Positions 20,200-48,261 of a DNA stretch of 64,000 nt are shown one piece after another (position 1 is the first letter of the stretch; the number at the start of each line of letters is the position of its first letter). A model generated the notes under the pieces. The model saw nothing but the letters and a program-made list of their open reading frames with translations, made no database searches and was not told the origin of the DNA. Location of the stretch: contig JARUPZ010000006.1 in NCBI GenBank assembly GCA_031213475.1, positions 3,687,501-3,751,500 of the forward strand, read 5' to 3'. Position numbers and translations under genes: made by a program. Source of the DNA: Nereocystis luetkeana (lineage: Eukaryota > Sar > Phaeophyceae > Laminariales > Laminariaceae).

Positions 20200-20300
20200 T
20201 CCGCCTCAGAAAGGAAGTAGCATGCCTTACTAGAGCGGGTATATTCAAATCGCAAACAATGGGTGGCCGCAGAAAGTAAATGCTACCTGGTATGCCCTAC
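20200..20300 (+). repeat. Tandem-repeat units (about 60 bp), detached part
   Basis: One and a half units of the array that resumes at 20,555: GCAGAAAG...AAATGC...TGCCCTAC, then GGGTATATTCAAATCGCAAAC. A SINE-like element (20,300-20,530) separates this part from the main array and may have inserted into it. Confidence 0.65.
20284..20292. other. TACCTGGTA insertion within a repeat unit
   Basis: This unit reads AAATGCTACCTGGTATGCCC, whereas the sister unit near 20,577 reads AAATGCTATGCCC. The difference is exactly 7 bp and equals CCTGG plus a second TA. It is an empty/filled site comparison for the over-represented word. Confidence 0.7.
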
Positions 20301-20530
20301 CTACTTTTTTTTTTTTTTTCATCACTTTTACTTTTCAGCCTAATTAGTAGGATTTTTTTTGCCCTCGACGACCTTATGGACAAGCCGTGGTCACAGGTGT
20401 CTACCCTTCTCCCCCCCGATACGTGCCTTTATTTTTTATCGCACATAGGGTTCAGCATTCCCACTGCTCGTCGATTTTCATCGAATGTAGCTAACTCACG
20501 CTCTCGCGCTTTCCGCTGATCAATTTTTTA
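20300..20530 (-). repeat. SINE-like repeat, inverse copy
   Basis: Inverse of the bodies at 6838-7050 and 61,130-61,370: it contains GTCGTCCCTTCTCC-like, GGGTTCAGCATTCCCACTGC and ATTTTCATCGAATG blocks. The tRNA-like head is mostly missing here. A long T run near 20,306 lies at its edge. Confidence 0.55.
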
Positions 20531-20554
20531 TGCAAGAACTTACTGGAGGACTAC

Positions 20555-20910
20555 TACTGCTGGCCGCAGAAAGGAAATGCTATGCCCTACCTACTAATAA
20601 AGGGGGTATATTCAAATAGCACACGATGGTTGGCCGTAGAAAGGAAATACCATGCCCTACTAGATGGGGTATATTCAAATCGTAGAACGATGGTTGGCCG
20701 TACAAGATAATGACCAAACCCTTTCGGGCGAAGCAGATTCAAATCGCAAAAAGGGATTCGCCGCAGAAGATAATCACTGAGCCCTTTCGGGCGAGGCAGA
20801 TTCAAATCGCAAACTCGGATTCGCCGCATAATATTTTTCGAATCGTAAACACTGATTTGCCGCAGAAAAGAATCACCACGTCTGGGCGAGGCATATTAAA
20901 ATCGCTAATA
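20555..20910 (+). repeat. Degenerate tandem array, about 60-65 bp units
   Basis: About six units sharing GGTATATTCAAATCGCAAAC, TTGGCCGCAGAAAG and GCCCTAC or CCCTTTCGGGCGA blocks. Two unit types are visible: an early one with ATGCCCTACTA and a later one with CCCTTTCGGGCGAGGCAG, which is itself palindromic (CCCTTTCGGG). No coding frame. Confidence 0.7.
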
Positions 20911-21024
20911 TTATAGTGGTTGGCAGGTCGAAGGCGGATATGCCAAACTCGGGAAAGTTGCACACCAGTACTGGGGGCGAGAGTGTTGTAAAGCTTTTGT
21001 TGGGTAGGCCTTTGGTGAACCTTT

Positions 21025-21122
21025 TACCAGTGTAGCCCAACGGGATAATACCTCAATATATATATGGCGTCTATCGGCAAGACATGGGTCGCTGGTCGTG
21101 AGTTCGAATCTCACGTCCACCA
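21025..21122 (+). other. tRNA-like segment with A-box and B-box matches
   Basis: TAGCCCAACGG (21,032-21,042) fits the pol III A box, and GAGTTCGAATC (about 21,100-21,110) fits the B box inside a 5-bp T stem (GTGAG...CTCAC), followed by GTCCACCA. However, the 5' acceptor expected from the A box does not pair with GTCCACC and no anticodon stem folds cleanly. It is either a decayed or intron-bearing tRNA gene or a SINE head; I favour a tRNA-derived relic. Confidence 0.35.
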
Positions 21123-21247
21123 TGACAACGCATTGAGAAGAAAAGTGAAATTCCTCAGGGGCGTTTGAAGTGGTTCACAGCAAATGGTGTTGCCAGTACG
21201 GCCCGGGCGGCACGCGGGGTCTGTTGTCGCAGATGACCTTGTCGGAA

Positions 21248-21799
21248 TTAATCTGGGGAAGAAGGTGCGCATTTCGACGCCAAGGGCGACTCGTCAATCT
21301 GATACAGAACGACGTGTCTCTCGAACCATGGTCTGCTAACCCTCCTTCGGTGTACGCTTTTCGCTCTCACAAACATCTGATAGCACCACAACGCCGGTCC
21401 AGCTTTCAGATCTACCATGGGCTTTTCCTTGTTTAGAGCCAAAAGGTGACGGTGTAGGGGAGTCTGGTGTCCTGCTCCGACAACACATACAAATTGAATG
21501 ACTCCAAGATGCCATCCTTCGGTGGCCATTTTGAAGCAGATGTGCGCTCCAATAATGTATTTCGTCAAAAACTCCGGTCCGTCCAGGATGCTGCTGCTGG
21601 ATACCCTGGTAATGCATAACCTGACGGACAGAAACCAAACCCTTGCAAACGATGGTCTGGCGTTGGTACGTTCGGGAACACGGAATATCGGCTCCTGCCT
21701 GTTGGATTTCATCGCTACACCAATGCTGGGTCTTATGCATTTTTTTTTAGTGATTGAAAAAGGCAGGAAGTCGGATTTTCCACCGGCAAAAAGCCACAC
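21248..21799 (-). pseudogene. Degenerate coding-like segment, unknown
   Basis: A 183-codon minus-strand open frame. One part (YIIGAHICFKMATEGWHLGV) has the look of a small beta-barrel segment seen in some transposon proteins, but I cannot name the family. An overlapping minus-strand frame is also open, so it may be chance. There is no start or partner domain. Confidence 0.2.
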
Positions 21800-22009
21800 C
21801 AGATCGGTGCGCCATGTGCCGTCTTATCGTGATTTTGGTTTTATTTCATGGGAGAACTAAAAGAACAGAACAGAACCGACATTTTGAACTCCCCGTGGAC
21901 CACGACACGAACGAGAGTCGCTCAGGCCGGGTTGGGCGATCAACAACCTTCACCACCAGCTCCTCGAAGGAAGGAACGGAATGTGGAACCTCCTGAAGAG
22001 CTGCGTAAG

Positions 22010-22340
22010 GGGTTTGCTACTCGTTACGACTTCACGGTTCCTCCAGCTCTCGTTCTACAGCAGAAACAAATACTTGGCTACAGTACAAGAAACCGAAAAT
22101 TCAAGCGCCTGGAACCACATTTTCAACCTTCAGCGGCAAGGTCCGGTATGAAGGAGGACACGAAAAGTGCTGTCGCTTTGGCACACTCACGGGAGTGCAC
22201 CAAGGAGCTCATACCCGGTCTGCGAAATTTTTGCTCGCCAGGAACGGTCGAGCTAGAGCAGACAAACGAAATGCCCTCGGGAAAAAAGGCGGCAGACGTG
22301 CTTCCATTGGCTTTGTTGTCGGGACTTTTTTGTGTTTTGT
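22010..22340 (-). repeat. Dispersed repeat L, copy 3
   Basis: Shares TTCAAGCGCCTGGAACCACA, AAGGAGGACACGAAAAGT, TTTGGCACACTCACGGGAGT and GGCAGACGTGCTTCCATTG with the copies near 6.5 and 7.2 kb. It includes the outer block ACTCGTTACGACTTC. Overlapping ORFs on both strands are not conserved between copies. Confidence 0.65.
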
Positions 22341-23375
22341 GGGCAGTGCAACACAGGTGCTCGAACGCAGTCCTTGCACAAGCAAGACATCGAGCGTAGG
22401 TCATTACCCCCACGCCGGGCACGAGCAAGCACGAGGTCCTGTGACGAGCACGGGCAGACGTGAGGTAGTCGCTGGTTTGTCGATTCAAGCCAGGAAGTTG
22501 TGCCTTCTATTTATTTGTTTCCTCCCGTCTCTACTCCGGCCCGGCTGGGACCACGAACTGAAGGCTGGGGCGAGCTGACGCGACTTTAGTGTTCAGGGGG
22601 GGATCTGCTGCGAGGACTGGATCCAGCGAGTTCCAAAACAAAAAACAACACGGTATGTCATGTGTAGTGATTTGTCGACTGACGATAAGGTGCTATCTAA
22701 CGACGTGCGAAGAAGCGATGAGTGGGAGCGGCGACCGCGTCCCAGTAACAGGAGGCGGCCCGTTTGGAAAAGAAAGAACTCGAACGGGTTGGGGCACCCG
22801 CTCACACGTGAGCATAAGCATAGACGCGGCTGTACGGGTGGGAGGCAGCGCGACGCGGGTCTTTGTCTGGAGGTGCATATATGCACATCGAAAACACGCT
22901 ATGATACATTCCTGAAGGCGGCAGAGGGAGGACGCGTTGTGAAGACAACGGGCGGGCCAGTGTACGAGAGAGAAAACAAACAAACAAAAAAAACATATTG
23001 ATCTATGCGCACAACCCACAAAATACACCCCTGATCACCGTACGCACTCATGTACTGGTACGCCAAGATCTGCTGCAACATTTACAGGGAGTAAATCAAA
23101 CGATTTTCAGTGTGTTGTATTTAAGAACAGCTAACGACAGTCCCGCAGGAGGAAACCCCGTCCCCGGATCAAAACCCCCTGTATAACACATATACTCCAA
23201 ACCATTGTAATTGAAACAACGGCTGCACTCCAAACGATGACCATGGCCAGAAAATAAAATGCCAAGCGGTGCCCTACTCCCCCATGCCCCTCAAAGTGGC
23301 GCAGGGTTGGCGACCGGACACATTATTCCTCTCATCACTCAAACATGGTGCTCATCGAACAATGCTCATACCCCC
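22341..23375. other. No recognisable gene; 3' flank of Copia-3
   Basis: Nothing coding was recognised. The region just below 23,376 would be the 3' untranslated or LTR side of the Copia-3 relic. I found no second copy of it upstream of Copia-3, so no LTR pair can be drawn. Confidence 0.45.
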
Positions 23376-25555
23376 TTATTCACCCTCCAAAGGCAGATTC
23401 AACAAGGACCTACGATGATACTTCAAAGGGGCCGTAGCAAGGTATTTAGTCAAAATATCCGCGTGGTGCTCTTCCGAAGCTACGAACCGAATGTCGATCT
23501 TCTTAACACGAAGTAGCTCTCCGACAAAATGAAAACGCACGTCAATATGCTTACTCCGCGCAGAACTAAGAGGGTTCTCAGCCAACACTAGGCCCCCCTG
23601 GTTATCCTCAAAAACCCGAACAAATAATTCGCTTACCTCTGGACAAATAAACGACAACACCGCGCCCGTAAACAAAACTTCCTTCACCCAGGGCGACATA
23701 CTCTGCTTCTGCTGTCGACAACGTAACACACCTCCGCGTGCTACTTGCCCAACTGACGGCCGACCCCCTAGGGTAATTACCGTCCCCGATACCGAGCGCC
23801 TATCGTTCGACTTACCAGCATATTCAGCATCACTATACGCCGTCAAATCCAATCCCGAACCCCGCACAAAAGTCAATCCCATAAACCTGGTCCCATGGAG
23901 GTAAGCCATTATCTTCAAAACTGCCTTCCAGTGCCTCTCCGTTGGGTTGTGGGAGTGGCGCGCCACAGCACGAACAGCGTTCGAGATGTCCGGCCTCGTC
24001 ATGGTCGACAGCCACATCAAGCTGCCTACAGCCTCCCTGTACGGCCAGTCTCCTCCAATTTCGCCCTCCTCTCTTGGACCTAGTTCCACACCGGGGGTCG
24101 CGGGGATATCAGAGGATGAGTTAACACCAAAACGATTCGGCATGCTCTCAACAAACGCCTTCTGCGTAATCTCCAATGTCCCCAATTCCCAGTCGCGTTG
24201 AGAGCACAACCAGTATACGAAGTCAGTTCGCCGAGGTTATCTATGGGGAATTTCGTAACTAGCGCGGCATGGAAATCTCTGCTTGTCTCGTTCGATCCTG
24301 CGATCACGATGTCATCTACATGGACGGCCATGATCAGTTAGTTCTACCTTGCCGTCCACAACCATGCGAAAAACACACGGGTCAGACCTACACTGCTCCA
24401 TACTGTACTCTACCACGGTATCTACCAATGATCCGGCCCGCTGCCGTCCGCTCTGCTTTAGGCCATACAATGATCTGTTCAGGCGGACGATCCTTCCTAT
24501 CATGTCACCACACCCAACGGGTAGTTTCACGTACACCTCGGCGTCGAGTGTCGCGCGAACAAATCTTGTGCGACGTCTAGATGAAAAATCTTCAGACCAC
24601 ATTCGTTGGCAACAGCCGCCAGAATTATAACTGACGCTGACGAAGAAGTTGGTGCTAACGTTTGAAAGTAAGCTACATCCTGTACCTGGCTAAAACCCTT
24701 AGCCACAAGTCTGGCCTTTGTCGTTACTATCAGGCTATCCTTATCCGTCTTGTAGATGAACACCCACTTCGCACCTACAGGTTTCCGCCCTCGTGGCGGT
24801 GTCGCGGCTTCATATGTACCGGTCGTTTTGTGGCCGTTCAACTCAATTTGCATGGACTTGTGCCACGCCGCTTTATATCGGGGACGCTCAACATCTGCTA
24901 CGGACTGCGGGGGCGGTTCCACGTCTTCCGGGAAACCACCCGGCATGCACACGCGCAACTCCCCTTTATTCTCCACAGCAGGTCCTCCGGCCATGAAGGC
25001 CACTGCACCCTCCGTCGTCCATGACGTACGATTCAGGATACTCCCAGGCGTCGTCGACCACTCGTACGCTGCCGCAAGCAGCGCGTCTGCGGCTCCTTTA
25101 TCCATCCTTAGCTGGTGCACAGCGGGTTCACCCTCCAGGCGTTGGCTCTGACCCCGGGTCCGGCCCCGTATTGTAGGAGGGAGCCGTCCCCAGCTGCTAA
25201 GCTCGTGTACTGGCCTGCCGGACAGGATCGCGGGGGGATCCTCACCGTTCCCTTGGCCGGTGTAGAAGGCTGATGCTGCACCCGGGTCGCTTTCGGCCCT
25301 CCCTGCCGGGACCTAGGAGGCGTCCACGGCGCCCCCTAGAGAGGAACCCATCGTCTCGGCTGTTTCGGCCCTCCCCCTCGGAGCCGAGGAGGCGTCCACG
25401 GCGCCCCCTCGAGACGAACCCATCGTCTCGGGTGTTTCGTCGCCGGCCTCGCCGGCGGCAGGTACCTAATGTGTGCGCTCCTGCAGAAACGCGTCCAGGT
25501 CAAAACCCCACGTCACGTCGAGGTCGTTCAAGTAAGCCAGACCGTCGTCAGTTTT
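23376..25555 (-). pseudogene. Copia-3: Ty1/copia pol relic (linker, RT, RNase H)
   Basis: Reads on the minus strand. Order: a proline/glycine-rich linker with a 72-bp tandem duplication; then RT starting at GAKWVFIYKTD, with ARLVAKGFSQ, LDVAQ, LYGLKQSGRQ and the catalytic VHVDD motif; then a RNase H domain with TRPDISNAVRAVARH, SDAEYAGKSNDRRSVSG, EDNQGG and SKHIDVRFHF. At least four frameshifts separate these blocks (near 24,565, 24,320, 24,200 and 23,720), so it is dead. Gag, protease and integrase are absent, and there are no LTRs. Unlike Copia-1 and Copia-2 it reads through the linker-RT joint without a TAG, and its sequence places it in a different copia lineage. Confidence 0.85.
25294..25437 (-). 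repeat. 72-bp tandem duplication in Copia-3 pol linker
   Basis: Two copies with a 72-bp period (24 codons), starting at 25,294 and 25,366, both containing GGCGTCCACGGCGCCCCCT. The frame is kept. Copia-2 has a separate 72-bp duplication in its own linker. Confidence 0.75.
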
Positions 25556-25769
25556 TAGTAGGATGCAGCTCACCCTTCATGCGACTCGCCCTCCACCTCA
25601 CGGCGCTTCGCGCTTGGTGCAAGCAATGCCTGCCTGGTCGGTGAAAACCCAACATGCTCAGCCCCGGCATTGTAGGGATGCGAGGGCCCATGGTCATACG
25701 ACTACGGCCGACTACGGCTATACACGAGATCGAGTACATATCTCCTATCGAGTACACTCCCCCCCCCCC
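25555..25769 (-). repeat. Oligo-G-bounded repeat, copy D (truncated)
   Basis: Inverse orientation. It ends at a C12 run (25,758-25,769) next to GAGTACACTC and carries GTAGGATGCAGCTCACC and CATTGTAGGGATGCGAGG. Only the G-run-proximal half is present. It sits exactly between the Copia-3 relic and the LINE relic. Confidence 0.7.
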
Positions 25770-25774
25770 TCTTC

Positions 25775-27347
25775 CCCGCCATTCTGCGCACTCGTGTTGG
25801 CGTCAACGGTTGTGGTCGTGGTTGAACCTATCCCATGCCGTTCTGCCGATGCCTCCTTCTCATCCTTATGCCATTTCCGCACGAAGACCTCCGCCCCTTC
25901 CTCGACCCGTCGGAACCATCTGCCGGCTTTCTGTGCTGCCTCGCACCACCCTTCGAGCTTGATGCCGAACTCCTTGAGGTCCTCCTCAAGGTACCTCATC
26001 CAGTCCCACTCCTGTCCTCCGGAGTAACCCTTACCCCCAACCATCTCCCCAAACATCACCCTCTACGGCAGACGCTCCTCTCCCATGCGTGTCACAAAGC
26101 CCGCAAACAAGAGCCTACGTCTGCGTACCGTCGTCTCAACGCTCTCAGAGTTTGTCCTGAGAAGCGCGCTAGCATTAGGATAGAATGTGGTCTTCGCGCT
26201 TTCATTTTCGCCAGAAGATGCATCGGAGGAGCATCTTGTGGTGGACCTCCCGTAGCCTACCGTAATCAGTCTTGCTCGGGCTCCAAGTAACGCAACCGTA
26301 GAGTAACGTTTCGATCACCTCGGCTCTCAGCATTCGCACCTTCAGGCGTAAGCGCACACCCGGGCGCTCACAGATTCCCATCATATATCGCCCGAAGCAT
26401 GCACATGCCCTCTGGAGTCGACGCGTTACCTCGACACGTCTGCTCGTCTAATCTGTGCTGATAGCCCCGCCCAAATACACAAACTCGGTCGTGTTTTTGT
26501 ACACTTGGCCGGCTGCGGTGACGGTGAACGGCGCGTTCCCCCCATCTTTTGTTTGCAGACACATGATCTGTGTCTTGGCCTCCGAGACCGTCAGGCCGAA
26601 AGCGGGTCATGCAGACACGATCACCATCATTATCCTCTCCAGGCCGTTGGGTGATCGCGATACTATGCCCGCATCGTCAGCATAGAGCATAGCCCACAGT
26701 GCCTGGGCCTCTTTATCATTCCCCAGGCCGTAGTCCCACAGTGCCCGTGCCTTCCCCCTCTTCCTTTTCTTCTTCTCCTGCTTTCGTTGGACTGGCACCA
26801 AGCTTTCCGTGATGGCTTTATCAGCGGCGAAACGTTTCTCCGCCACGCGCAGCACCGCTGTGAAACACATGTTGAACAGCAAAGGCGCGAGCACACACCC
26901 TCGCCGTAGGCCCTGTTTCACGTCGAACATATCTGAGCACTCACCCTCATCCAGCCGCACGCATGCTCACATCCCGTTGTGGAATTGGCGGATAACGGTG
27001 AGCATTCTAGGTGGCACGCCAAAGCGAGCCAAGACAGCCCACAGGAGGGTTCGGTCGACGGAGTCATAGGCTTTGGTGAGGTCGACAAAGCACATGAACA
27101 GCGGAGTGTCCTTCTTCCTTGCCAATTCCTGCAAACGTCGCACCACGAACATCATGTCGACCGTCGACCGTTCGGGCCTAAAGCCTCTCTGCTTCTCTGG
27201 AAGGATGCTATTCCGTTCGCAGTAGTCGCTGGGGCGGCGCGCGATGACTTTGAGGAGTACTTTGCCGGCATGCGCGATAAGGGAAATGCCACGATAGATA
27301 CCACACTCCGTCCTCACCCTCGTCTCCTCATCATGGCAAGATACCAT
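25775..27347 (-). pseudogene. LINE (non-LTR) reverse transcriptase, 5'-truncated relic
   Basis: Minus-strand blocks in order: [20 protein letters not shown], a [20 protein letters not shown] block, [29 protein letters not shown] and the catalytic YADD motif (AMLYADDAGIVSRS). These are followed by a C-terminal region with VIETLLYGCVTWS and KMLLRCIFWRK. The order fits the RT and thumb/C-terminal part of a LINE ORF2. At least three stops or frameshifts separate the blocks, and the endonuclease half upstream of 27,347 is missing, typical 5' truncation. The exact clade is not assigned. Confidence 0.85.
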
Positions 27348-28895
27348 AAATGCGAAAATTTGGGTGGTTTGGGTGGAGGGGGAGGTTGGATTTTCGCCAC
27401 CCAGCGTTACAGCATGGTCAGATGGTTAGCAAACACAACGCCAAGTACGGCTAACGGTTATACGGGGCATTTGGCACACCTTCTCGCAGCAGCAGCGCTC
27501 AACGCACACGGCACCAATGTCAGTATCGGCGGGCTCTGTGCTCGCACACACAAACGAAACCTTCTCGTGCTGGTGCGGTTGTAAGTCGTAGAATATCAAA
27601 CGGTTCTTGCTTTTGAGTTTTATCTACGTAACGAAACCCAACTCTACGAGTACTCGTAGGAAGACTGTGCCTGCCCGCAGCAACGTATGGGCCGTGCCCC
27701 TAATACATGCTACAGGTGGTGTTGTCAGGCCCGCCCTTCTGCTGATGAGGGGCGGAGAAGCAGGAGAAGATCTGCTGTAGATGTCATACAGCAGTAGTAG
27801 TGGTGGCACCAGTCACAACGGTTTTTGATGTTTTTGTTCTACCAAACGAAGACCAACTCCACGAGTACTTGTAGACAGACTGTGCCTGTCCACAGCAACG
27901 TTCGGCCCGTGTCCCCAAGACATGCTGCAGGCAGCATTGTCAGGCCCACCCTCCTACTGATCAGGGCACGAAAAAGCAGGACAAGCTCAGCTGGAAATGT
28001 TGTACAGCAGTATTAATAGTAGTGGTGGCGTCTGCTACGCGAAGCTCTGTTGGATATGTCTACATCCCTAGCGATTGTGCGTGCCGCGGTTTCCTTGTTC
28101 CGAATAGCAATTATGGTGGTGGAATGCCTTGCGCAATAAGCAGCAATCTTCTCCCGAGCGGCAGATCTGATGGTGGAACAAACAAGTAACAAAACGAACA
28201 GAGGGAGCTTTACGCAAGCGTCACAACACACGGTCTACGTAGTCGTGGTAACTATGGAGGGAGATTTGTCTCGACAACTACGGGACGAGAGCAAGAGCAC
28301 AATACAAAAAGTTCGCCCTGCCGTCAACCCCTCGCAACTACAGTTTTTAAATATGTTACGGCTATACGGGTGACGGTTATACGGTGCGTATAGCACACCT
28401 CCTAGCAGCGGCAGCCTCCTTCTTTTGAGCGCGTGCGTCCGTCTGGGGCTGCTCAGAAGTATGGCGGGCTTCCATTCTTCCAAGTATTTCCGATCAAGCA
28501 ACATTGTTGTCGTGTTGCGCGGGGTATGGCGTCTTCCCAAAGCAGAAACATCTAGCCGGTCGCGATACCACGAAGAACGCAGTAGTTGAACGCGAAACGC
28601 CGTACGTGTACCGGTGTGTACGATATGGTGGTGTCGGTGGTGAGAACTTGGCGCCATTGCTGTAGTGGGCCGCCATAGGCACGACAAGGAGAGTTGGTAG
28701 AACGAGATCAACAACGCCCAACCTCATATGTGGCTCGTGTGATGGCTTGTGTGATGTTGCTTGCCGCTGCTGTGGGGGTATACTGCGGAGAGATGCTGTT
28801 CTGAGACTATGCACGACCTCAAGAACTGCTGTTGCTGCTTTGCTCTACAGCAGTATGTACGACCCGCGGCTGCTGATTTGCTGTTTGCTGCTGTA
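27348..28895. other. No recognisable gene; one tandem duplication
   Basis: Apart from the duplication at 27,624-28,030, nothing stands out. Blocks such as GCTATACGG and GCATTTGGCACACC near 27,460 recur near 28,360-28,400 as GTGCGTATAGCACACC, suggesting a further diverged copy. Confidence 0.4.
27624..28030 (+). repeat. Direct duplication, period about 215 bp
   Basis: Copy 1 starts at 27,624 and copy 2 at 27,839. Shared blocks: ACGAGTACT(C/T)GTAG, GACTGTGCCTG, CAGCAACGT, CATTGTCAGGCCC and the CAGCAGTA...GTAGTGGTGGC end. About 80% identical. Non-coding. Confidence 0.7.
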
Positions 28896-29360
28896 TGAGT
28901 GTTTCGATTCACTGTAGACCAGGAAGCGACCCTGCTATTTAACGCCGTAGACTGTATCACAAACCCTATGAGGCCAGACCTGGCAGTCAGAAGCGGCCTT
29001 GCACGGCCGTTTGCAAGCGGCGAACAACGACCTCATTAACGTCGTTAGTCAATCCCGCTGAGCGACCCATGCTTCTACAAGGTGGTCTCACTTTTGTTCT
29101 GATCGATGCGCTGTAGCCCATTTGCGAAAGGTTTCGCTGCTCGTACCGACTCTGGTACAAGCGATTGTCTACAAGCGATGGTCCCGCCGGCGGGGCTGAG
29201 ACGCGTAGCTCAAGGCACAGGGCTCCGTTTAATCCGAAAGTTGGCCCAGACTGCTTATATGTGCGTCCGCTGTTGATTCGCGCGGTATGCATGTCGACGT
29301 CGGGGGCGATTTGGGACCAGATTTTGCGAGGATTGGAGTTTCCTTTTGAGGGAGGATAGA
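28896..29360 (-). repeat. Dispersed repeat E, copy 1
   Basis: Inverse of 54,690-55,225. Conserved blocks include AGGAAGCGACCCTGC, CTTGCACGGCCGTTTGC, AACGACCTCATTAA, CGATTGTCTACAAGCGA and CAAGGCACAGGGCTCCGTT. The strongest stretch lies around the AGCTCAAGGCACAGGGCTCC block, and open frames on both strands there are similar in the two copies. No known protein domain was seen. Confidence 0.7.
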
Positions 29361-32365: not shown

Positions 32366-32369
32366 ATTT

Positions 32370-33140
32370 GATAGTATGCCCTTGATGCGATCTTGCGGGT
32401 TGGGGGACCCATGTCGCGGGAATGTTGCGAGTTAGGGGATCCCCACTCTCCTTATGGGATCCCCACTCATTTTAGGGGATCCCTACTCACCTTCGGGGAT
32501 CCCATCTCGCCTTAGGGGATCCCCAACAGGCATAGGGGATCCCCCTAGTTAGGGGTCCCTTTTGTCTCACGGGATCTCCGTTTGCCCTAGGGTATCCCCC
32601 GTAATAGCCACCAGGTAGATGGTATTCAGTGTGAAATTGGGTCCCGGTCCCTAACACTATGAGGGGACCCTATAGGCTTGCGGGATCCCCAACAGGCTTA
32701 GGGGATATATACCCTCTCGCCTTGATTTTATAACACTTCAACTACATGCTTTGACAACGTGAGCCTCCAACATTACGTTTGGGATATTTTCCAATATCAT
32801 TATGCAATGTTGGAATATCCCCCAAACGGTGCTAGGAGATCCCCCAGTTCTCACGATTGTTTCCACAGAAGAAACTGAATAGAGACACTATATCAAATAC
32901 TATTCGTACATGTTGGGTGCACATACAATACACACATGGTGTGGGTCCCCTAAGCCTGTTGGGGATCCCCTAAGGCGAGGTGGATCCCCTGTTGGGGATC
33001 CCCGAAGGTGAGAGGGGATCTGCTAAGGGGAGAGGGGATCCCCTCAGGGCAGAGGGAATCCCCTAAGGTACGAGGGGATCCCCTGAGGCAAAAGGGATCC
33101 CCTAACTAGGTGGATCCCCTAACTCGTAATGATACCCTTG
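32370..33140. repeat. Inverted arrays of GGGGATCCCC units (foldback)
   Basis: The left array (about 32,400-32,710) repeats units such as TTAGGGGATCCCCA with about 20-bp spacing. The right array (about 32,940-33,130) carries the same units inverted (GGGGATCCCCTAAG). Non-palindromic spacers such as CAACAGG and CTCGCCTTA also appear inverted between the arms, so this is a true inverted repeat and not only palindromic words. The middle part holds a separate hairpin. No coding frame. The left arm begins at the 3' end of the ankyrin pseudogene. Confidence 0.8.
32776..32828. repeat. Hairpin inside the GGATCC foldback
   Basis: CGTTTGGGATATTTTCCAA (32,776-32,794) pairs with TTGGAATATCCCCCAAACG (32,810-32,828) with two mismatches and a 15-bp loop. 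Confidence 0.75.
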
Positions 33141-33477
33141 CACTCTTCAAGTGTCGCGTGCCACCGCGGGAATTAGCGAGGTCACTACCACAGTAGTACG
33201 GGGAGCTACTAAGATTGGATCATGGACAGAAAGAACGATTGTCCTCATCTTGATTTCTTGAGGTTGTCGTGATATCTACGTTTTGCAAGTAACATATGTG
33301 GATTCGCATCATGTTAAGCCCACTTACCTGCTGGTGACAGTTATCTGTATCGGTTTGGCGTGTGTCTTGCATCAGAAGGCGGTGATACGCACTCGCGGCC
33401 ATGTCTGTTTTTCCGATTGCCGATAGTTTGCTTGATTGAGTTGGGGATCCCCCAAGGGCAGCCAAATGTAATCTTCC

Positions 33478-35872: not shown

Positions 35873-36260
35873 CATCTATTGTGTACAGCTCAAGCTTCGA
35901 AAATATGTGCAAATGAGCTACCGCCGATAACTCAAGCCGGGAGAAACATGTGTAGTTCATGTAGCTTCTATAGCTCATCTCGGGGGCAGATGAACTAGCT
36001 CATATAGTTCCTATAACTCAGCCTGGAAAAAAGTGTATCGATAGGCTATCTTCTATAACTCAAGCCTTCGAAACATGCGCAGATGAGCTACCACCTATAG
36101 CTCAAGTCTTCAAAACATATGCGGATGAGCTACCACATATAGCTTAAGCCGGGAACGCACGTGCAGATGAGCTACCACCTATAGCTCAAGCAGGGAAAAC
36201 GTTTGCAGATGAGCTATCGCCTACAGCTCACCCCCGGAGAGCGTAATCATAGCTTATGCA
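35873..36260 (+). repeat. GAGCTA/TAGCTC hairpin-unit array, copy 1
   Basis: About nine degenerate units of 40-44 bp: GATGAGCTACCNCCTATAGCTCAAGC, then GGGAAAACATGTGCA or CTTCAAAACATATGC. In each unit GAGCTA and TAGCTC can pair with a 7-base loop. The related array at 46,465-46,890 lies on the other side of Copia-1 and the recombinase relic, in the same orientation. Confidence 0.8.
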
Positions 36261-36371
36261 CGCAGCTCATTGTTGTTCTTCCTCGGTAACACATGTATGG
36301 TAACCAGCTATAAAAAAACACCCTCCGGGACAACTGTGTGTGTATAGGAAAAACATGGGTTCGGCCTGGGT

Positions 36372-36571
36372 TTAATCGTTGTCCTCACCCATATCGATGG
36401 CGTTGTTCGTGGGGTCCACATCCATCGATGGATCCGGTTGCTGCCCACCGCCAGCCTGGCCTACGGTCAAAGCGCCGCCAGAGCTGCTACCCCGGGCCGT
36501 GGGCATGCTAGAGGCGTTGCTGTGTTGTGTCGGTGTTGTGTTCTGTGCGAGCGCCTCTTGGGGTGTGTATG
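36372..36571 (-). pseudogene. Probable host terminal-exon remnant split by Copia-1
   Basis: On the minus strand a clean frame runs from the Copia-1 target site to a TAA at 36,372-36,374. Its composition is that of a real disordered tail: YTPQEALAQNTTPTQ, an SSSGGA stretch, GGGQQPDPSMDVD, and an acidic end MGEDND. On the far side of Copia-1 (43,546-43,575) the same frame continues once one copy of the target duplication is counted (PAVTMSP leading into YTPQ). There it is preceded by TATACAG, a possible splice acceptor. The host product is unknown; the frame match could be chance, but composition supports a gene. Confidence 0.45.
36567..36571. repeat. Copia-1 target-site duplication, left (GTATG)
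   Basis: GTATG directly precedes the 5' LTR; ATATG (43,546-43,550) follows the 3' LTR. Four of five bases match, as expected for an ageing insertion. Confidence 0.65.
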
Positions 36572-36985
36572 TGTTCGTGGTGTGCGGTAGCTTGATACAG
36601 GTCTACGGATATTGGGGGTTTCATGTATTGTGGGGTTTCGTATTAAGTATCGAGGCATTATTTGGTATGCCTCGTGGCTGGAGGGGTGGAGCTGCTCCTC
36701 CGAGAGCAGTCGCTGATGTTAATGATACGGCCCAGGCTTTGATGATAACGATACTGCCTGTCTATATGTGAGTGGTGCAGCCGGTGACAATCTTGGTGCG
36801 GCTTACCTCCTGTGTGTGGTTTATGTGGTGAGGTCTCTGACAGAATGGTATTGATCCACCTGGTGTGTGTTGTGCTTGGTTTATTGTACCAGGTACAAGT
36901 GTTTTGTTTTCTCTCCTCGACCTACGCCATAGGAGCACGCCGCGCGGTTACATAGGCCACGTTATGCAGCAAGCGTATTCAAACA
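36572..36985 (+). repeat. Copia-1 5' LTR (414 bp)
   Basis: Begins TGTTCGTGGTGTGCGG and ends GCGTATTCAAACA, canonical TG...CA ends. It matches 43,132-43,545 throughout. It contains TACCAGGTA (36,897-36,905). The bases after it (CGACATCGTG...) do not look like a known initiator-Met primer-binding site. Confidence 0.95.
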
Positions 36986-37047
36986 CGACATCGTGTTTGA
37001 ATGATATCGTTGTTTCCGGGCCCGGAGTTTGCTGAAGGGTTGCTGTT

Positions 37048-39424: not shown

Positions 39425-40470
39425 ATAGACGTCAACGACCTGCACTGTTCTCTTGGCAACGCCCACGATGCCGTTTTACGCGAGACTGCTCGTCAAATGG
39501 GCATCAAGGTGACGGGACGTTTGGGGTATTGCGATGGGTGCGCGGGGGGGAAGGGAATCCGCAAAGCCATCGCAAAATCCACATCGTCCCGTGCTGAGAA
39601 GCGGATGCAGCGCCTGTTCGCCGACCTCGCAGGACCCATGCCGACGTCGTCAGGCGGCGCTCGGTACTGTTTGAGGATCGTGGACGACGCCACCAACATG
39701 GGCTGGCCGGTATTTCTGCCAGACAAGAGCGCGGCCACCGTTACCCTCGGTTTCCGCACTTTCATGGCCGCCGTCAATGCCTACGGGAAGCCTAGATGCC
39801 TTCGGATGGACAACGCGTCCGAACTCACCAGCGCCGAGTTCAAAAGGCTGATGACCGAGAACGACATCCGTCGCGAGTTCACCTCCGTCGACGGTCCGAA
39901 ACGCAACGGGCGGGTGGAGCGCAAGCTAGCTCTTGTTGCCGAAGGAGGCCAGGCTGCTTTCTTGGAATTCCAGACCATGTTCGATGGGGTGGAGTTTCCG
40001 GCCAAGGCGCTCAATTACGATCGCACGTGGCCGGAAGCATGGACGTGGATGTGCGACGCGCTCAACCTCATGGCGCGAGTGGATGACAAGCCCGACATGA
40101 GGTGCTCGTTCGAGAAGTTCCACGAGAGGCCTTATAGGGGCCCGGTGCTTTCATACATGATGCCGGCACGCCACAAGGCCAAGCGGGCGGCTAAGTCAGA
40201 GCCGAAGGGCGAGCCATGCTTCTACCTGAACTCCGACAACGACCACGCCTCGGATTGCAGCAAGATCATGTTGTCGCCATCCGGCATCGCGAGCTACTCG
40301 ACCGATGTGACGTGGGGCTACCGGCGCGCACCGTTCGATGGAGGGACCGCGATCACCGGGTCCCCGCCTCCGGCCAGGGGGGGGCTGTCGGTGACCCAGC
40401 GCAGCAGCCGCAAGCGCCGCGGGGCTTTGAGGTGTGGTACCAGCAGTCGACGCCATCGTCTGGTGTAACG
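39425..40470 (+). pseudogene. Copia-1 integrase
   Basis: In frame with gag-protease after the TGA at 39,422. It carries the HHCC zinc-binding head (LHCSLGNAH...YCDGCAGGKG), then the DDE core: LFADLAGPMPT (first Asp), LRMDNASELTS (second Asp) and NGRVERKLAL (Glu). A linker follows. Near a G8 run (40,377-40,384) the reading frame must shift to continue into EVWYQQSTPSSG and the RT. It joins copia cDNA to the host genome; this copy cannot be made in one piece. Confidence 0.88.
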
Positions 40471-40479
40471 CCAGAGTCT

Positions 40480-42417
40480 TCGCCCACACCCCTATCTGCT
40501 GCGTCGTCCGTACCGCAGCAGCAGGAGCCGACGCCAGCGACCGTTGCACCGACGGAGTCCTTGCCCGTGTCCCTTCCCCCTGCGCCGCCCGCAACCGTTG
40601 CATTGCCAGACTCCTCGCCCGCACCTCCGCCCACTGTGTCGGAGATGCCGGTGCAGCAGCAGCAGCAGCAGCAACCGCGGGTATCGCCGGCGGTGACGCG
40701 GTCGGCATCTCGGCAACAGGGGGGCCTGGGTACGCAGCATGGCTTCATTTCGATGCTAGCTGCGCGGGAGAATATGCACATGGTCATCGCCAATCAGTCT
40801 CCGCCGCACATGCCCGCCCTTGAACTGCCTTCATGCCCTGCGAGTGAGTTGGTAACGCCCGACTCATATCGCGAAGCGTGCGGGGATGAACACGGAGACG
40901 TGTGGTTCCACGCCATGGACACTGAATTCCACGGTCTGTACCGCGCGAAGACGTTCGGTGCTGTGGTGGATGAGAAGGATAGAGGCACATAGCAACGAAA
41001 CGGAATCAACGTGATCTCTGCTAAGTGGGTTTATTCTTGGAAGGTTCACGAATTTGGCAGAGTAGTGCGGGCAAAGGCCAGGTTGGTAGCGAGGGGCTTT
41101 GGACAGCGTGCAGGAGTTGACTATTTCGATACTTATTCCTCGTGCCCATCCGTTGCGAGCGTTCGTATGCTCGCTGCCGTCGCGTGTGAGTTGGGATTGG
41201 ATTTATGCCATTTTGATGCCGAGCAGGCGTTTGTGCAGTCAGAGTTGAGCGAGGACGTCTACATGCGCCTCCCCAAGGGGTGCGGGTCGATGTCCGGTAA
41301 GGTGGTCAAGTTATGTCGCAGCCTGTATGGTTTGAAGCAGGCGTCGCGGCAATGGCATCATCACTTGGTACGTGGTATGAGGGGTCTTGGTTTCGAGCAG
41401 TGAGAGGCTGATGCGTGTGTCATGCGTTTGGTGAAGGCGGGGGCCGTTTCTATCGTAGTAGTAGTGCATGTGAATGACATATTTACGATGGGGCTTAAGA
41501 GTAGGTGTGACCAGTTTTGTGAGGACCTGAATCAGTTTGTTCCTATCAACAACCTGGGGGGGTTACGATGGTACGCAGGTTGCCGATTCTCTCGAGACTG
41601 GGGTGCAGGGACATTGACGATACCACAGCAGGTGTTCGGTGAAAGCACCGTAGCGAAGTCCGGTGTCACCCGCGGCAAGTGCATTCCTGCGGTGGTTGAC
41701 CTAAAGCTTGAGGTGCTTGACAAGGATGAACCAGACGTTGATGAGCCTTTTCGGTCGTTAGTAGGGCATTTGATGTGGCTGGCGAATCAGACCCGCCCGG
41801 ACATCCTTAACGCGGTTCGGGCGGTGGCAAGATACGCTGCAGCACCAAAGTTATTGCATTGGCAGGCAGCGTTGCACATACTTAGGTACATCAAATCTAC
41901 GAGTACGTACGGTATTACTTTCCAGAGGGGTCTGAGTAATGGAGTTCAGTTGGAGTTGTACGTGGATGCGGACTACGCGCACGAGGCCAATGACCGGAGG
42001 TCTGCCTCTGGTGGAGTTATTATGTGCACTGGTGCCTTTGTATCGTTCTACTCTAGGACGCAGAAATCCATTACCCTTTCGTCCACGGAGGCAGAGTATG
42101 TGGCGATGGCCACCGGTTTCCGCGAGGCGACTTTCATGCGTTATATCTGGAGCTTTATTTTTTCGGACCGCGAAGTCGGATGTACCACGGTGAAGGAAGA
42201 TAACCAGGGGGCGATACATTTGGCGAAAAACCCTGTGACCACTCCGAACAGTAAGCACATTGCTGTCCGTCATCACTTCCTTCGGGGACGTGTTGCTAAT
42301 GGGGAGATCGAGATTGTCCACGTATCGTCGGCATTGCAGCATGCTGACTTCCTCACGAAGCCTTTGCCCAAAGAAGCGTTCCGTTTTCATTGCAAATTTG
42401 TGATGAATTTGTGGTGA
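40480..42417 (+). pseudogene. Copia-1 pol: linker, reverse transcriptase, RNase H
   Basis: One frame with two internal stops. A Gln/Pro-rich linker ends at TAG 40,990. RT then runs from VISAKWVYSWK through ARLVARGFGQ, CHFDAEQAFVQS and SLYGLKQASRQW to a TGA (41,401-41,403). The catalytic block reads VHVNDIF, so the first Asp of the VDD motif is Asn (codon AAT, 41,473). RNase H follows: TRPDILNAVRAVARY, VDADYAHEANDRRSASGG, SSTEAEYVAM, EDNQGAIHLAKNP and SKHIAVRHHF. It ends in FVMNLW and TGA. The Asn and TGA are lesions relative to Copia-2 (VDDIF and QSPADACVM). Confidence 0.92.
40990..40998 (+). promoter_or_regulatory. In-frame TAG-CAA-CGA, candidate leaky stop (Copia-1)
   Basis: The stop lies 8 codons before ISAKWV, at the start of RT. 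Copia-2 has TAG-CAA-CCA at the equivalent codon. UAG-CAA is the core of the tobamovirus-type readthrough context (UAG CAR YYA); the third codon here (CGA) departs at one base. Copia-3 has no stop at this joint. Confidence 0.5.
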
Positions 42418-42975
42418 TTTCTGTCATTTATTTCTTGGTTTCGGATATTTTGGGGTATTGGGTGATGAGAACGGAGAAGATTGATTTTTGGGGAATTGGA
42501 GAAAGTATTGGGATGTAGTCATGCGTTGAGTAATGTTAATACGCCAATAAGGTGTGCCGCTGGTCTTGATGAATCGTGCCGTACCCGTTGGCTATTGATT
42601 AAGTATGCACAACGTACAGGGGAGCCAAAATTACTACCAGGTAGTATCCATAGTACTTTTAAATTTAGAAGCAGTATGTTGACTTTTGCATACTCCCGGA
42701 GTGAGCACCTACTAATAGCAGGGGGGCTATTATAGTTCGATTTGAGATGTCCTACATCAGAGACGTTCTGTTGTTCTGCTCTTCCAGAGTGCAAAACAGG
42801 GGGGCCGATGCTATCGGGCGGTACGATATCTATGTGAAGGCGGTGTTATTGATTTTGTTTGAAGGTTTTACCAACATACTTACGTTTGTTGGATTTTTTC
42901 CATTCTAATAGTTACTGTCTTGATATATTTTAGGAGGCCTCCACTGGAATCGAGATTGAGAGATTTGGTATTGGG

Positions 42976-43080
42976 ATTGCCGTTTTACCTTGGCAACGAT
43001 GAAGGATGGAATTTGGGGTTGCCGTTTTACCTTGGCAATGATATTTTATGGAATTTGGGGCTTGCCGTTTTACCTGGCAA
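42976..43080 (+). promoter_or_regulatory. Three tandem hairpin motifs in Copia-1 3' region
   Basis: TTGCCGTTTTACCTTGGCAA at 43,019-43,038, with a near-identical copy at 42,976-42,996 and a one-base-shorter form at 43,061-43,080. TTGCC pairs with GGCAA around a conserved GTTTTACC loop. Units are about 42 bp apart and share ATTTGGGG. The same motif occurs in the Copia-2 3' region with a compensatory stem change. Confidence 0.65.
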
Positions 43081-43120
43081 TTGGTGATAAGATATTCGGG
43101 ACCTATCGTATCGCGCACCG

Positions 43121-43131
43121 AATAGGGGGGC
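43121..43131 (+). promoter_or_regulatory. Copia-1 polypurine tract
   Basis: AATAGGGGGG directly upstream of the 3' LTR (one C between), the expected plus-strand primer position. Confidence 0.75.
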
Positions 43132-43545
43132 TGTTCGTGGTATGCGGTAGCTTGATAACGGTCTACGGATATTGGGGGTTTCATGTATTGTGGGGTTTCG
43201 TATTAAGTATCAAGGCATTATTTGGTATGCCTCGTGGCTGGAGGGGTGGAGCTGCTCCTCCGAGAGCAGTCGCTGATGTTAATGATACGGCCCAGGCTTT
43301 GATGATAACGATACTGCCTGTCTATATGTGAGTGGTGCAGCCGGTGACAATCTTGGTGCGGCTTACCTCCTGTGTGTGGTTTATGTGGTGAGGTCTCTGA
43401 CAGAACGGTATTGATCCACCTGGTGTGTGTTGTGCTTGGTTTATTGTACCAGGTACAAGTGTTTTGTTTTCTCTCCTCGACCTACGCCATAGGGGCACGC
43501 CGCGCGGTTACATAGGCCACGTTATACAGCAAGCGTATTCAAACA
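43132..43545 (+). repeat. Copia-1 3' LTR (414 bp)
   Basis: TGTTCGTGGTATGCGG to CAAACA. It carries TACCAGGTA at 43,447-43,455, so that word was in the element before this insertion. Confidence 0.95.
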
Positions 43546-43643
43546 ATATGGTGACATGGTGACAGCTGGCAACTGCTGTATATATATACAGTAGCTGTTG
43601 TCAAAAAACGAAAATTCAAATTGTGTTGGGTGTCGACCTTATC

Positions 43644-43730
43644 CCTTTTAGAGGATCAGTCCCGTCGTTGGGGGCAAACCACTAAAATCTAAATATGTTG
43701 TCCCCAAAACGGGACTGGAGTTCTAAAAGG
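43644..43730. mobile_element. Short foldback element (87 bp)
   Basis: CCTTTTAGAGGATCAGTCCC...TTGGGG pairs with CCCCAAAACGGGACTGGAG...TAAAAGG. The arms are about 30 bp with few mismatches. Non-coding; MITE-like. Confidence 0.65.
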
Positions 43731-43784
43731 TATCGTCAGATCGTCAGGTATCTTCAGAACAGTTGCAGACCCAATCTCATATAA

Positions 43785-43800
43785 GGGTCGATCTTAACGA
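43785..43800 (+). repeat. Dispersed motif GGGTCGATCTTAACGA
   Basis: One of about eight copies. Others: 2904-2920, 4598-4616 and 34,464-34,486 on +; 3927-3950, 5416-5432, 35,538-35,553 and 63,243-63,259 on -. Here and at 63,145-63,200 the adjacent sequence is GAGTGTTTTTCAG...TTTTCCCGNAATTTCGGTATTTTCCT, so the motif is probably the end of a short dispersed element. Confidence 0.55.
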
Positions 43801-43852
43801 CGAGTGTTTTTCAGTTTTTTTCGGTATTTTCCCGTAATTTCGGTATTTTCCT

Positions 43853-44306
43853 GTAGTATTCTGTCTCTCTACCGTGGATCATTTAATGTAAGTATTGGAT
43901 TGGATCATGCCTCCTGCGCCGGGCAGGAGGTCCCGTCCGGTATTTCCCCCCGCGCTGAGTAAAGTGGCGAATCACAAACTCTGCGCGGGGTTAGTACCTG
44001 TAAATAATCTGGGTAGACAAGCCCAAGAATACTAATCCTACTGCCGGGTGGGTGGGATGGTCTCAGGAAATGGCGCGACCAACTCTACTCCCGAGGTTTC
44101 GGGAGCGACAGGAAGAAGTGACCTCGATTCGAAAAAAAAAATCGAGACGTTTCGATATAATCAATGGTTCCATTATTTGCGCCAAATTTGAATCCATGGA
44201 TTGGATCGCCATTTTACTGTAGTATTCTGTCTCTCGACCGTGGATCATTGCATGCAAGTATTGGATTGGATGAGGCCTCCTGCGCCGGCCTGTGGTCCCG
44301 CCCATA
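43853..44306 (+). repeat. Direct repeats of about 90 bp flanking a 270-bp segment
   Basis: 43,853-43,943 and 44,214-44,306 share CTGTAGTATTCTGTCTCTC, ACCGTGGATCATT, AAGTATTGGATTGGAT and GCCTCCTGCGCCGG. They lie next to the recombinase pseudogene and could mark its boundary. No coding content. Confidence 0.65.
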
Positions 44307-44393
44307 CTTCTTTACGCCTCCTTTCAGATTGCCTTTGTAGTTGACCGCCGGTCCGGGGCAGAATAGTCTCACCCAAACTTCTACCACCTGAAC

Positions 44394-45460
44394 TCAGTCC
44401 TTACCCGCACACGCCGCAAAGTCCTTTCTGAACTCCGGCGACAACGGTAGCTCGCTAGCGTCCGCGTAGCTCTGGCCACGTTTCTTCTTGCTACCCCGCA
44501 CTTGTCCACTCGAGGTAGCCCCGATGTAGTACTTTGCAACTGACTGTCTTCCAGCCACCAATTTTCATGATCTCGTCCACAGCCGTCCCGGCAAGGGATT
44601 TGCTGAGCGAGCCTCCCCCTCGAAAGGAGTGCGTCGTGAAGAGTTTCGGCAGGTCTGCCATTCGCAGATAGCTTTGCAGGTTCGCCGTCATACGGGCCGC
44701 GGAGAGAGAGAGATGGCCCCGGCCACCTTCTGCCGTAGCAACGGGGAAGAGGTGCCCAGTGCTTAAGTCCCACCCAATCCGCTGTGCGGCCGAGATGCAC
44801 GCCGCGACCGCCCGAAAGGCCAAGGAATACAAGGCGACATCTCGGGTCAGCAAAATACGCTCTGCCAGAGATCTGGCCACCTGAGCGCGCAACCGCATGT
44901 CGCTTAGCAGATCTATGAGTGTGTGCTCCAGCATCGGCGCCGCCTGATTGACCTGAATCCCGACCTGCTTCTGTTCCTCAGGTGCGAAGGTAAGGTACGA
45001 ATCTACCACCGGGCTCGAGCACGGACTTCCTACCCGGCGGACGGGGTCTCTCCTTGCCCGCTTTCTTTCATCGCCATTTTCGGCTTCGACCAAAACCTTT
45101 TCGAATAGACTCGGCCACATACCGTTTAGCACACGATAGGCACGTATCGTCGCCCGCGTGGCTCACACCGGGGCAAGACGCTTCATGCACCATCTTGGTG
45201 CCTTTCCTTTGCGTGTCAAGGAAGCAGAGGAAATTAAAGACATCGTCTGGGGTAGATGTTTGCCAACCACGAGACCCCGCCGAAACAACGAGCACAAACG
45301 CGTCAAACTCGTCTGCCACCCTGCTCTTTCGGACTTGCCCGGGGCGCCCCTCCATCGCCGCCAGTACTTGGCGTCGACGTGGTTGCGTATTATCAACATC
45401 CACGACCACAGGCCCCCGCGCCGGATACCGCGGGGCCGGCAATGATCGAACCGGGTGAGC
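44394..45460 (-). pseudogene. Tyrosine recombinase (Crypton/DIRS-like), broken
   Basis: Minus strand. The N-terminal SAM-like domain (TPDDVFNFLCFLDTQRKGT, a Cys/His region, RYVAESIRKGF) is followed by a frameshift near 45,075. A middle part (LLTRDVALYSLAFRAVAAC) jumps to ISAAQRIGWDLSTGHLF; the stretch that should carry the first catalytic Arg is missing. The catalytic C-terminal part reads TTHSFRGGGSLSKSL (HxxR) and IGGWKT, then after another frameshift near 44,530 KYYIGATSSGQVRG (the Tyr) and ends FAACAGKD. Such enzymes cut and rejoin DNA for transposon movement; this one is dead. The YIGATSSG ending is, from memory, common in brown algal repeats. Confidence 0.7.
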
Positions 45461-45470
45461 GCCGCATCTC

Positions 45471-45900
45471 CTAGTAGAAATTTAAGTGTGCAACGTTTTC
45501 TTCCTCACACGTAGAGCAAAACGCAAACCGAACCAAGTCCCTGGTCGTTGCCTCCCCACATAGAGGTGACCCACCCTCGAGAGGCGTCCGTCCGCCAGTG
45601 CCGTTCTGTTTGGAAGAGAACACCAAATCAAGGGGGACCGTAAGCCTCGAAGAGCGTTTGAAGACACCCGATCCAGCGAAATATATGCGCGCCACTATGT
45701 GATGGCTGCCCGTCCCTGCGCGATAGTAGCCGAAACTTGGGCACCCGTTATCCTTTGGTACGGAAGTCTAAAGCCGAGGGCTCGTGCCTCGTCGTCCACA
45801 AACCTGATGAACCTTGACGGAATACGGTTGTGGAACACCGCTCCGGGAAATCGGGCGACGTCATACGGGCCGGGACTCGACGGACCCCGGTATTCCCTTA
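45471..45900 (-). pseudogene. Coding-like segment upstream of the recombinase, unknown
   Basis: The minus-strand translation shows non-repetitive protein-like stretches (FHNRIPSRFIRFVDDEARAL, RIYFAGSGVFKRSS, CSTCEEENVAHL), with one stop between them near 45,697. It lies directly upstream of the recombinase relic on the same strand and may be part of the same transposon. No family was recognised. Confidence 0.3.
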
Positions 45901-45952
45901 GGAGAAGATCGTGAAGATCCCCTTACATCGCGTAAGTACAACACCAACGTGT

Positions 45953-46372
45953 CTCGGAGCGGGTACATCAGAGCTGACAGGGGTCGTTCCTAAGGTCACT
46001 CGCAAGTCATGGCCGAACGCAGAAGGCGCAATAGTTTTCTGGGCTCTCGTGGCCGAGTTCACAAGGTGACCGCACCGAGGTGGCCGACCGACTGAGCTCG
46101 GTGACAGAAATAGCTGAGACTTTGTCGCTTTGGGCAAGCGTTGGGCGTTGTTACGTGACGAGTTGAGGATGGATTTCACTCCCCAAGGCACCGACACCTG
46201 CCTACGAGTCAGGTCGATGACTGTGGGGCCACCGCACGCATGGGTTTCCCGAGCGCAGCTGCTGTAGGGACGGTTCTGTGCCGGGTGGACGATTATTTCC
46301 CGAGCCAACGGAGGCACTTACCCGATAAGATTCAACCCTCACTGAATTTAATGCCGAAATTTCAGGAAAAAA
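45953..46372 (-). repeat. Dispersed repeat F, copy 2
   Basis: Inverse match of 2948-3358, from TGAAATTTCGGCATTAAATT-like sequence through CACTCCCCAAGGCACCGACA to the CGGTGGGAAC-like end. It is followed on the minus strand by the coding-like segment and the recombinase relic, which are absent next to copy 1. Confidence 0.65.
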
Positions 46373-46464
46373 CGAAATACAGTACGTGTCCTAATATCAT
46401 ACGAAGAGTATGTGGCTGTTTGTGTTGATATCGGTCCACTATGCGTACTTGTATTGGCCACTTA

Positions 46465-46890
46465 CACAGCTCATGAACTACAGTACAAACAGTAGCTCAT
46501 CTATCCCCTTTAGCCTATCCAGATGAGCTATAGCCTATAGCTCAAGCTTTGAAAATATGTGCCGATGAGCTACCGCCTATAGCTCAATTAAGCTTTGAAA
46601 AATGCAGATGAGCTACCGCCTACATAGCTCAAGCTTCGAAAATATGTGCAGATGAGCTACCGCCTACCAGGTATAGCTCAAGCCGGGAAAAACATGTGCA
46701 GCTCATCTCGGGAGTAGATGAGTTAGCTCATGTAGCTCCTATATAGCTCACTTTGGACATATATGTGCAGTTGAGCTATTCTCTATAGCTCAAGCTTGGA
46801 AAACATATGCAGATGAGATACCCTTCTATAGCTCAGGCCAGGAAAACATGTGAAGCTCACGTAGCTCACCGGCGAGCTATCGTGAGCTGA
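46465..46890 (+). repeat. GAGCTA/TAGCTC hairpin-unit array, copy 2
   Basis: About ten degenerate units of 42-50 bp, same consensus as 35,873-36,260. Units near 46,521, 46,564, 46,606 and 46,650 differ mainly at one TA: CCTATAGCTC, CCTACATAGCTC and CCTACCAGGTATAGCTC. Confidence 0.8.
46665..46673. other. TACCAGGTA insertion within a repeat unit
   Basis: Neighbouring units read CCGCCTATAGCTC; this one reads CCGCCTACCAGGTATAGCTC. The extra 7 bp equal CCAGG plus a duplicated TA. It is a second empty/filled comparison in an unrelated repeat family. Confidence 0.7.
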
Positions 46891-48223: not shown

Positions 48224-48261
48224 TACCTGGTACCTGGTACCAGGTACCTGGTATACCGGTA
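48224..48261. repeat. Tandem TACCWGGTA words plus TACCGGTA
   Basis: TA then CCTGG, CCTGG, CCAGG, CCTGG, each followed by TA (7-bp period, 48,224-48,253), then TACCGGTA (48,254-48,261). The centre base alternates T, T, A, T, unlike simple slippage of one unit. Confidence 0.8.

Follow-up and report, generated by a model that had tools for sequence, protein, structure and literature searches.

Why does one 9-bp palindrome, TACCWGGTA (W is A or T), recur so often in a stretch of the genome of the brown alga Nereocystis luetkeana? We analysed 64,000 nt of contig JARUPZ010000006.1 (assembly GCA_031213475.1, positions 3,687,501 to 3,751,500 of the forward strand; hereafter the window) and found 19 exact copies, against a mean of 0.37 and a maximum of 2 in 100 dinucleotide shuffles. 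The original prediction, made from the letters alone, had counted about 17 where about 0.5 were expected; its list of sites holds otherwise, except that the site given as 36,897 lies at 36,887 and that one at 470 was overlooked. It had also left itself open to a genome-wide count near expectation. In the assembly of 465,085,209 bases the word occurs 182,395 times and its reversed control word 1,744 times, a difference of about 100-fold.

The enrichment is also seen in sampled sequence. Twenty stretches of 10 kb outside the window contained 64 copies, with at least one in 18 of the 20. In these stretches and the window together, TACCWGGTA was the most enriched 9-mer, 36-fold over a third-order Markov model (the ranking covered words counted at least 24 times, words of period 1–4 being left out). 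Between two TAs, the 29 letter permutations of CCAGG had a mean of 0.62 copies and a maximum of 3, compared with 83 for CCWGG. TA comes next in 188 of the 294 strand occurrences of TACCWGG in ~276 kb, the other 106 being unclosed; the CCWGG unit is closed by TA at both sides.

A derived 7-bp gain at TA

Two pairs of empty and filled sites, already noticed in the original prediction, are real. In the first of them, AAATGCTACCTGGTATGCCC at 20,278 is the filled form of AAATGCTATGCCC at 20,575. In the second pair, CCGCCTACCAGGTATAGCTC at 46,660 is filled and CCGCCTATAGCTC at 46,573 is empty, with one-mismatch forms (CCACCTATAGCTC) at 36,091 and 36,175. Both filled forms are longer by 7 bp, which consist of CCWGG and a second TA.

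A larger family was provided by a long terminal repeat (LTR)-like sequence, judged copia-like by eye, whose site is filled by CCTGG in copy L010. Of 893 candidates 40 copies were scored: 33 were shorter than the filled query by 7 bases, two by 5 bases, and five, the query included, were of full length. Eight copies were fetched for inspection of the site itself. L028, L031 and L032, like the two copies in the window, are without exactly the scar. L025 has CCAGG at the place where L010 has CCTGG, in L026 CCAGG occupies a TA 2 bp from that site, L029 and L030 have the site of L010 with one substitution, and L027 has an extra TA alone. This hotspot shows three distinct filled states among the fetched copies. 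In addition, an unselected scan of 250 repeat alignments yielded 16 seven-base gaps with clean flanks, seven of them from two CCWGG sites.

These data identify TACCWGGTA as a 7-bp insertion that is derived, has recurred and favours certain TA sites; where copies were compared, the site is more often empty than filled. The opposite polarity, in which the word is ancestral and the short units are 7-bp deletions, fails on the LTR-like family, where the short form is common. The same comparison bears on the proposal that the word is a functional motif, for instance a binding site, that selection or the duplication of longer repeats maintains or spreads. The palindrome would suit such a motif, as would those copies that some dispersed repeats contain and carried along when they multiplied, but the LTR family has many empty alleles, TA is always part of the gain, tandem stacks have mixed centres, 182,395 copies exist, and outside the word the flanks show a target preference and little else. 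We regard a functional motif as very improbable.

One scar occupies the same place in two LTR-like direct repeats of 98.3% identity (Table 1), and therefore was probably copied along with the retrotransposon and predates its copying. Retro-duplication was weighed as an explanation and set low.

Target preference, scar variants and the excision reading

The insertion sites show a symmetric preference around TA. We excluded 22 of the 83 sites, in which a neighbour resembles another unit (tandem-like). In the remaining 61 the flanking bases are W (−7), A (−6), T (−2) and R (−1), and the opposite flank is their mirror image. In a split-half test, a matrix built from 27 sites distinguished the other 34 from ordinary TAs with an area under the curve of 0.82 (0.81 in the reverse direction), and the means were matched by 0 of 20,000 resamples. 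Beyond this preference the sequence outside the word shows little.

Since a scar is itself TA, five bases and TA, which fits the preference, both of its TAs would be good targets; this would explain the stacks at a 7-bp period. Replication slippage, or a 7-bp microsatellite process, would also produce period-7 tandem runs. However, single copies form the majority (61 of 83 were not tandem-like), neighbours in a run differ in their centre base, and slippage needs a first copy beforehand, which makes it hardly credible as the source. The centres in ten neighbouring scar pairs were AA (2), TT (2), AT (3) and TA (3). By eye, the order A–T appears more frequent than T–A among the neighbouring scars listed from the genome.

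Several variants between two TAs exceeded the letter permutations: CCAG/CTGG (TACCAGTA/TACTGGTA; n=20), CCGG (TACCGGTA; n=10) and CCAGGG/CCCTGG (n=10). Against a background of 2.75, the flank score was 3.75 for the first and 4.33 for the second, weaker for CCAGGG (3.4), 3.0 for CCCGG, and not raised for CAGG (2.6). The small variants resemble products of the kind expected from end joining. Forms with one substitution were ~52 above expectation, the exact word 81 above, indicating scars of a range of ages. In two cases one TA of a repeat holds either centre (L010 and L025; window position 19830 and L004), which fits mismatch repair and fits independent insertions too.

We consider TACCWGGTA to be the excision scar of a TA-targeting cut-and-paste DNA transposon, with a probability of roughly three in four. 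The original prediction had offered the same reading. The derived and recurrent gain at TA, the target preference, the variants and the sister scar/element pairs described below speak for it; the CC-ended parent was not found. From the scars we infer the parent, its ends, its overhang and the route of repair as follows. The transposon would insert at TA where the surroundings form the palindrome W A N N N T R [TA] Y A N N N T W, duplicating TA, and on leaving would deposit a few bases from its own ends. Staggered cuts would produce CC-tipped overhangs on both flanks, paired as CC/GG around one mismatched central base, and host end joining would close the gap as CCAGG or CCTGG. The overhang might be 5 nt, with element ends CCWGG, or 3 nt, with ends that begin CCA or CCT and overlap by one base.

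Scar words with matching elements and the search for a CCWGG parent

For two other TA scar words the matching elements survive in the genome, and these pairs serve as positive controls for the excision reading. Like CCWGG, both involve the gain of a few bases and TA at a TA and have left many scars; unlike CCWGG, both have their element. The target preferences of these pairs differ from that of CCWGG.

The word TATTAATA occurs 93,112 times genome-wide, compared with 10,689 for its reverse, and its flanks prefer T at −3 (0.62), A at −2 (0.54) and C at −1 (0.48). A 105-bp miniature inverted-repeat transposable element (MITE; ends TTACGGGGGACC, TA on both sides) has T, A and C at these positions in 12, 18 and 17 of 25 ends, and scar and MITE are matched by this common target preference. 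A sample of 264 kb contained 12 of the MITEs and 46 of the scars, a scar/element ratio of about 4. A TTA 3-nt overhang, annealing via its TA, would yield TATTAATA.

The second class, TACGAGTA/TACTCGTA, is enriched as well, with a count of 43 against about 4.7. Its element belongs to the CGAGCTGGGCC family, whose end TACGAGCTGGGCC occurs 478 times (reversed word, 9), often in convergent pairs 0.4 to 6 kb apart. The window holds one copy, and two long members were fetched. Long member L049 (4,775 bp) has open reading frames (ORFs) of 460 and 396 aa, neither with a Pfam match. Among 35 relatives of the second ORF, the 22 with a named organism come from Ectocarpus, Pylaiella, Scytosiphon, Sphacelaria, Ascophyllum and Hapterophycus, all of them brown algae. 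One of 12 aligned relatives matches DDE_3 (E 7.2e-6; 26.4 bits, below the cut-off of 28.6), a faint hint that the protein may be of the Tc1/mariner/IS630 kind. The predicted structure of relative P0121 was too poor for fold comparison (predicted local distance difference test score, 43.1), and a profile search against the PDB gave only an unrelated match (E 0.12). L048 contains a piece of reverse transcriptase.

Further repeated words and ends were seen beside TA. TACCAGGGTA, seen at L010:668 and similar places, adds 8 bp at TA by comparison with an empty relative in the window, and recurs genome-wide beside scars. The end CAGATCCAACCCAGG is repeated after TA in L013 (6187-9675) and at window position 52495. 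A 95-bp inverted-repeat element (ends ACCCCTTTAGAACCGCAGTCCCG, TA outside), to which no scar word is assigned, lies at 378-472 and 1604-1698 of L014 and at 9097-9191 of L013.

For CCWGG itself, the TA-flanked transposon with ends CCAGG or CCTGG that the original prediction called for was not found in ~276 kb or in ~300 listed tandem sites. This negative weighs against excision. None of the 106 unclosed TACCWGG belonged to an intact CCWGG-ended element, and scans for terminal inverted repeats (TIRs) gave no CC(A/T)GG-ended pair except the scars themselves. Three patterns that placed an unclosed CCWGG or CCW after a scar (2,141, 1,627 and 7,649 matches) revealed no common end among the ~100 matches listed for each, and no occupied LTR site was seen among the matches listed. 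In the genome, PF13358 had 0 matches, giving no transposase link to CCWGG, and PF03184 had 28, with no TA-flanked CC ends in the seven stretches inspected. The scar also exceeds published footprints in length, with 5 nt between its TAs compared with 3 nt for Sleeping Beauty (PMC7827188) and 0–4 bp for Passer (PMC9976928); it would therefore be a variant of known excision.

Other points that speak against the reading or weaken it concern the scars and their measurement. TACCCGGTA (8) and TACAGGTA/TACCTGTA (16) have little or no flank signal, and TACAGTA/TACTGTA is enriched (76 in the sample) with no matched element, a count clouded by CAG and TAC microsatellites. The A/T centre is a weak argument alone, because a single word CCAGG read from either strand gives W too. 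Depletion of scars from ORFs is not demonstrated: 0 of 15 independent sites fell within window ORFs of at least 250 aa, where the TA share (377/3,027) predicts ~1.9. The figure of 33 in 40 LTR-like copies compares lengths across the matched sequence, the site itself having been checked in the fetched copies; the 294 TACCWGG occurrences are slightly biased, because L001–L004 were chosen for close scar pairs; and the flank score applied to variants was drawn up on these same data, the split-half test being the fair one.

All three scar-plus-unclosed-end patterns were far above their reversed controls, and the continuations listed are decayed scars or repeats. Recurrent continuations were considered as element ends and rejected, since the eight places fetched were in fact dispersed repeats with the scar inside them. 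PF01359 had 0 matches in the genome, in a search whose control matched nowhere either. The 28 PF03184 matches are to DDE_1 (pogo-type; C1:8320630, C35:5112140 and others; L033–L036); several lie in open frames, most are single copies, and their ends were not found.

The parent element is rare, extinct or unlike our search model. As a rough estimate, 0 of 106 unclosed ends would put their number in the whole genome below about 5,000, and hence at least ~70 scars per element. A shortage of this order would suit direct insertion, in which a transposase or integrase complex writes a minimal CCWGG at TA and no full element is ever resident (abortive or at-once-undone integration). Scars vastly exceed visible elements, no occupied site was seen where scars are dense, and the scar is very uniform, with 83 exact copies against 20, 10 and 10 of the main variants. 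We know of no enzyme, however, that writes such a minimal insertion; the two element-matched scar words act like ordinary excision footprints, and variants like those of end joining are present. We consider direct insertion unlikely.

If the scars arose by excision, their great excess over elements suggests either that jumping is strictly conservative, with repair by end joining, or that the element has been lost. A long haploid phase, as in brown algae, would favour the former. A further proposal, which we put forward tentatively and hold to be somewhat doubtful, is that a scar-only conservative TA transposon, whose copy number hardly ever rises because end joining repairs every jump, hit the genome on some hundreds of thousands of occasions (182,395 scars still readable, besides others that have decayed) and has since become rare or disappeared; in its bolder form, an integrase would write CCWGG directly, with no large element resident at most sites.

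Known systems and other features of the window

Ciliate-type excision of internal eliminated sequences removes DNA back to one TA; it was rejected, as the scar retains both TAs. The TA target duplication of Tc1/mariner elements is shared by CCWGG. In elements of this type the cut on one strand falls a few bases within the element, so that the flanks retain terminal bases; excision leaves these bases with the target-site duplication, and repair is mainly by nonhomologous end joining (PMC7827188, PMC4561436). Sleeping Beauty resembles CCWGG in the duplicated TA, the terminal bases remaining from both ends and the end-joining repair (PMC7827188); it differs in that the CCWGG parent was not found, and in the number of scars in one genome. 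Stowaway/mariner-like MITEs of grasses are likewise TA-flanked and leave the duplication with short TIR pieces (PMC4561436, PMC1925063), but their footprints are varied (TA...GTA, TACTCC...AGTA and others), whereas one word dominates here. For rice mariners, insertions exceed excisions 2.6:1 and 2.8:1 (PMC4423477), while CCWGG scars heavily exceed visible elements. PIF/Harbinger (Tourist) MITEs share the AT-rich target and the formation of MITEs, but have a 3-bp (TWA) duplication and mostly precise excision (PMC4561436); they were rejected because the CCWGG gain is TA plus 5 bases.

Among the papers listed by literature searches, judged partly by title alone, none describes TACCWGGTA or such a flood of scars. 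Excision footprints are usually read locus by locus; here one word would mark ~182,000 past events and let their target preference and centre base be read. The history of transposition, the choice of targets and repair by end joining could then be counted even where no element survives, and a DNA transposon would be seen to leave chiefly 7-bp insertions, not copies. Indels and 9-mer motifs seen in brown-algal genomes call for caution, since they may represent transposon scars.

Table 1. Scars and related features in the window
Feature	Position	Strand	Remark
Scar TACTCGTA, CGAG class	23..30		right TA is the left-flank TA of the element at 31
TA-flanked CGAG-ended element, ends CGAGCTGGGCCAGCC / CGAGCTGGGCCACCC (CGAGCTGGGCC family)	31..779		matched to scar word TACGAGTA/TACTCGTA
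Scar TACCTGGTA	470..478		exact word; within CGAG-ended element 31-779
Scar TACCAGGTA	2059..2067		exact word
105-bp MITE, ends TTACGGGGG..., TA both sides	2746..2850		matched to scar word TATTAATA
Scar TACCTGGTA	19830..19838		similar place in L004 (2348) filled too, centre A
Scar TACCTGGTA	20284..20292		empty relative AAATGCTATGCCC at 20575
Scar word TATTAATA	28011..28018		
Scar TACCAGGTA	36887..36895		in LTR-like direct repeat 36572-36985 (one of two)
Scar TACCAGGTA	42635..42643		exact word
Scar TACCAGGTA	43447..43455		equivalent place in second direct repeat 43132-43545, 98.3% identical
Scar TACCAGGTA	46665..46673		empty relatives at 46573, 36091, 36175
Four overlapping scars, centres T, T, A, T	48224..48253		exact words
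Scar TACCAGGTA	48901..48909		exact word
Scar TACCTGGTA	49719..49727		exact word
Scar TACCAGGTA	50985..50993		exact word
Scar word TATTAATA	54569..54576		
LTR-like repeat, empty at the site that L010, L025 and L026 have filled	55551..55816	-	sister repeat 60429-60694, 99.6% identical, also empty
Scar TACCAGGTA	61433..61441		exact word
Scar TACCTGGTA	61718..61726		exact word
Two overlapping scars, centres A, T	62965..62980		exact words

Two further repeat structures lie in the window. At 5584-6348, an inverted repeat (exact ends ACAATCTGGGAGAA) surrounds telomere-like arrays, one of CCCTAA and one of GGGTTA type, that are oppositely oriented; L014 and L019 have similar ends, 287-289 bp apart. 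Two arrays of ~20-bp units based on GGGGATCCCC, at 32432-32544 and 32961-33122, are inverted to each other.

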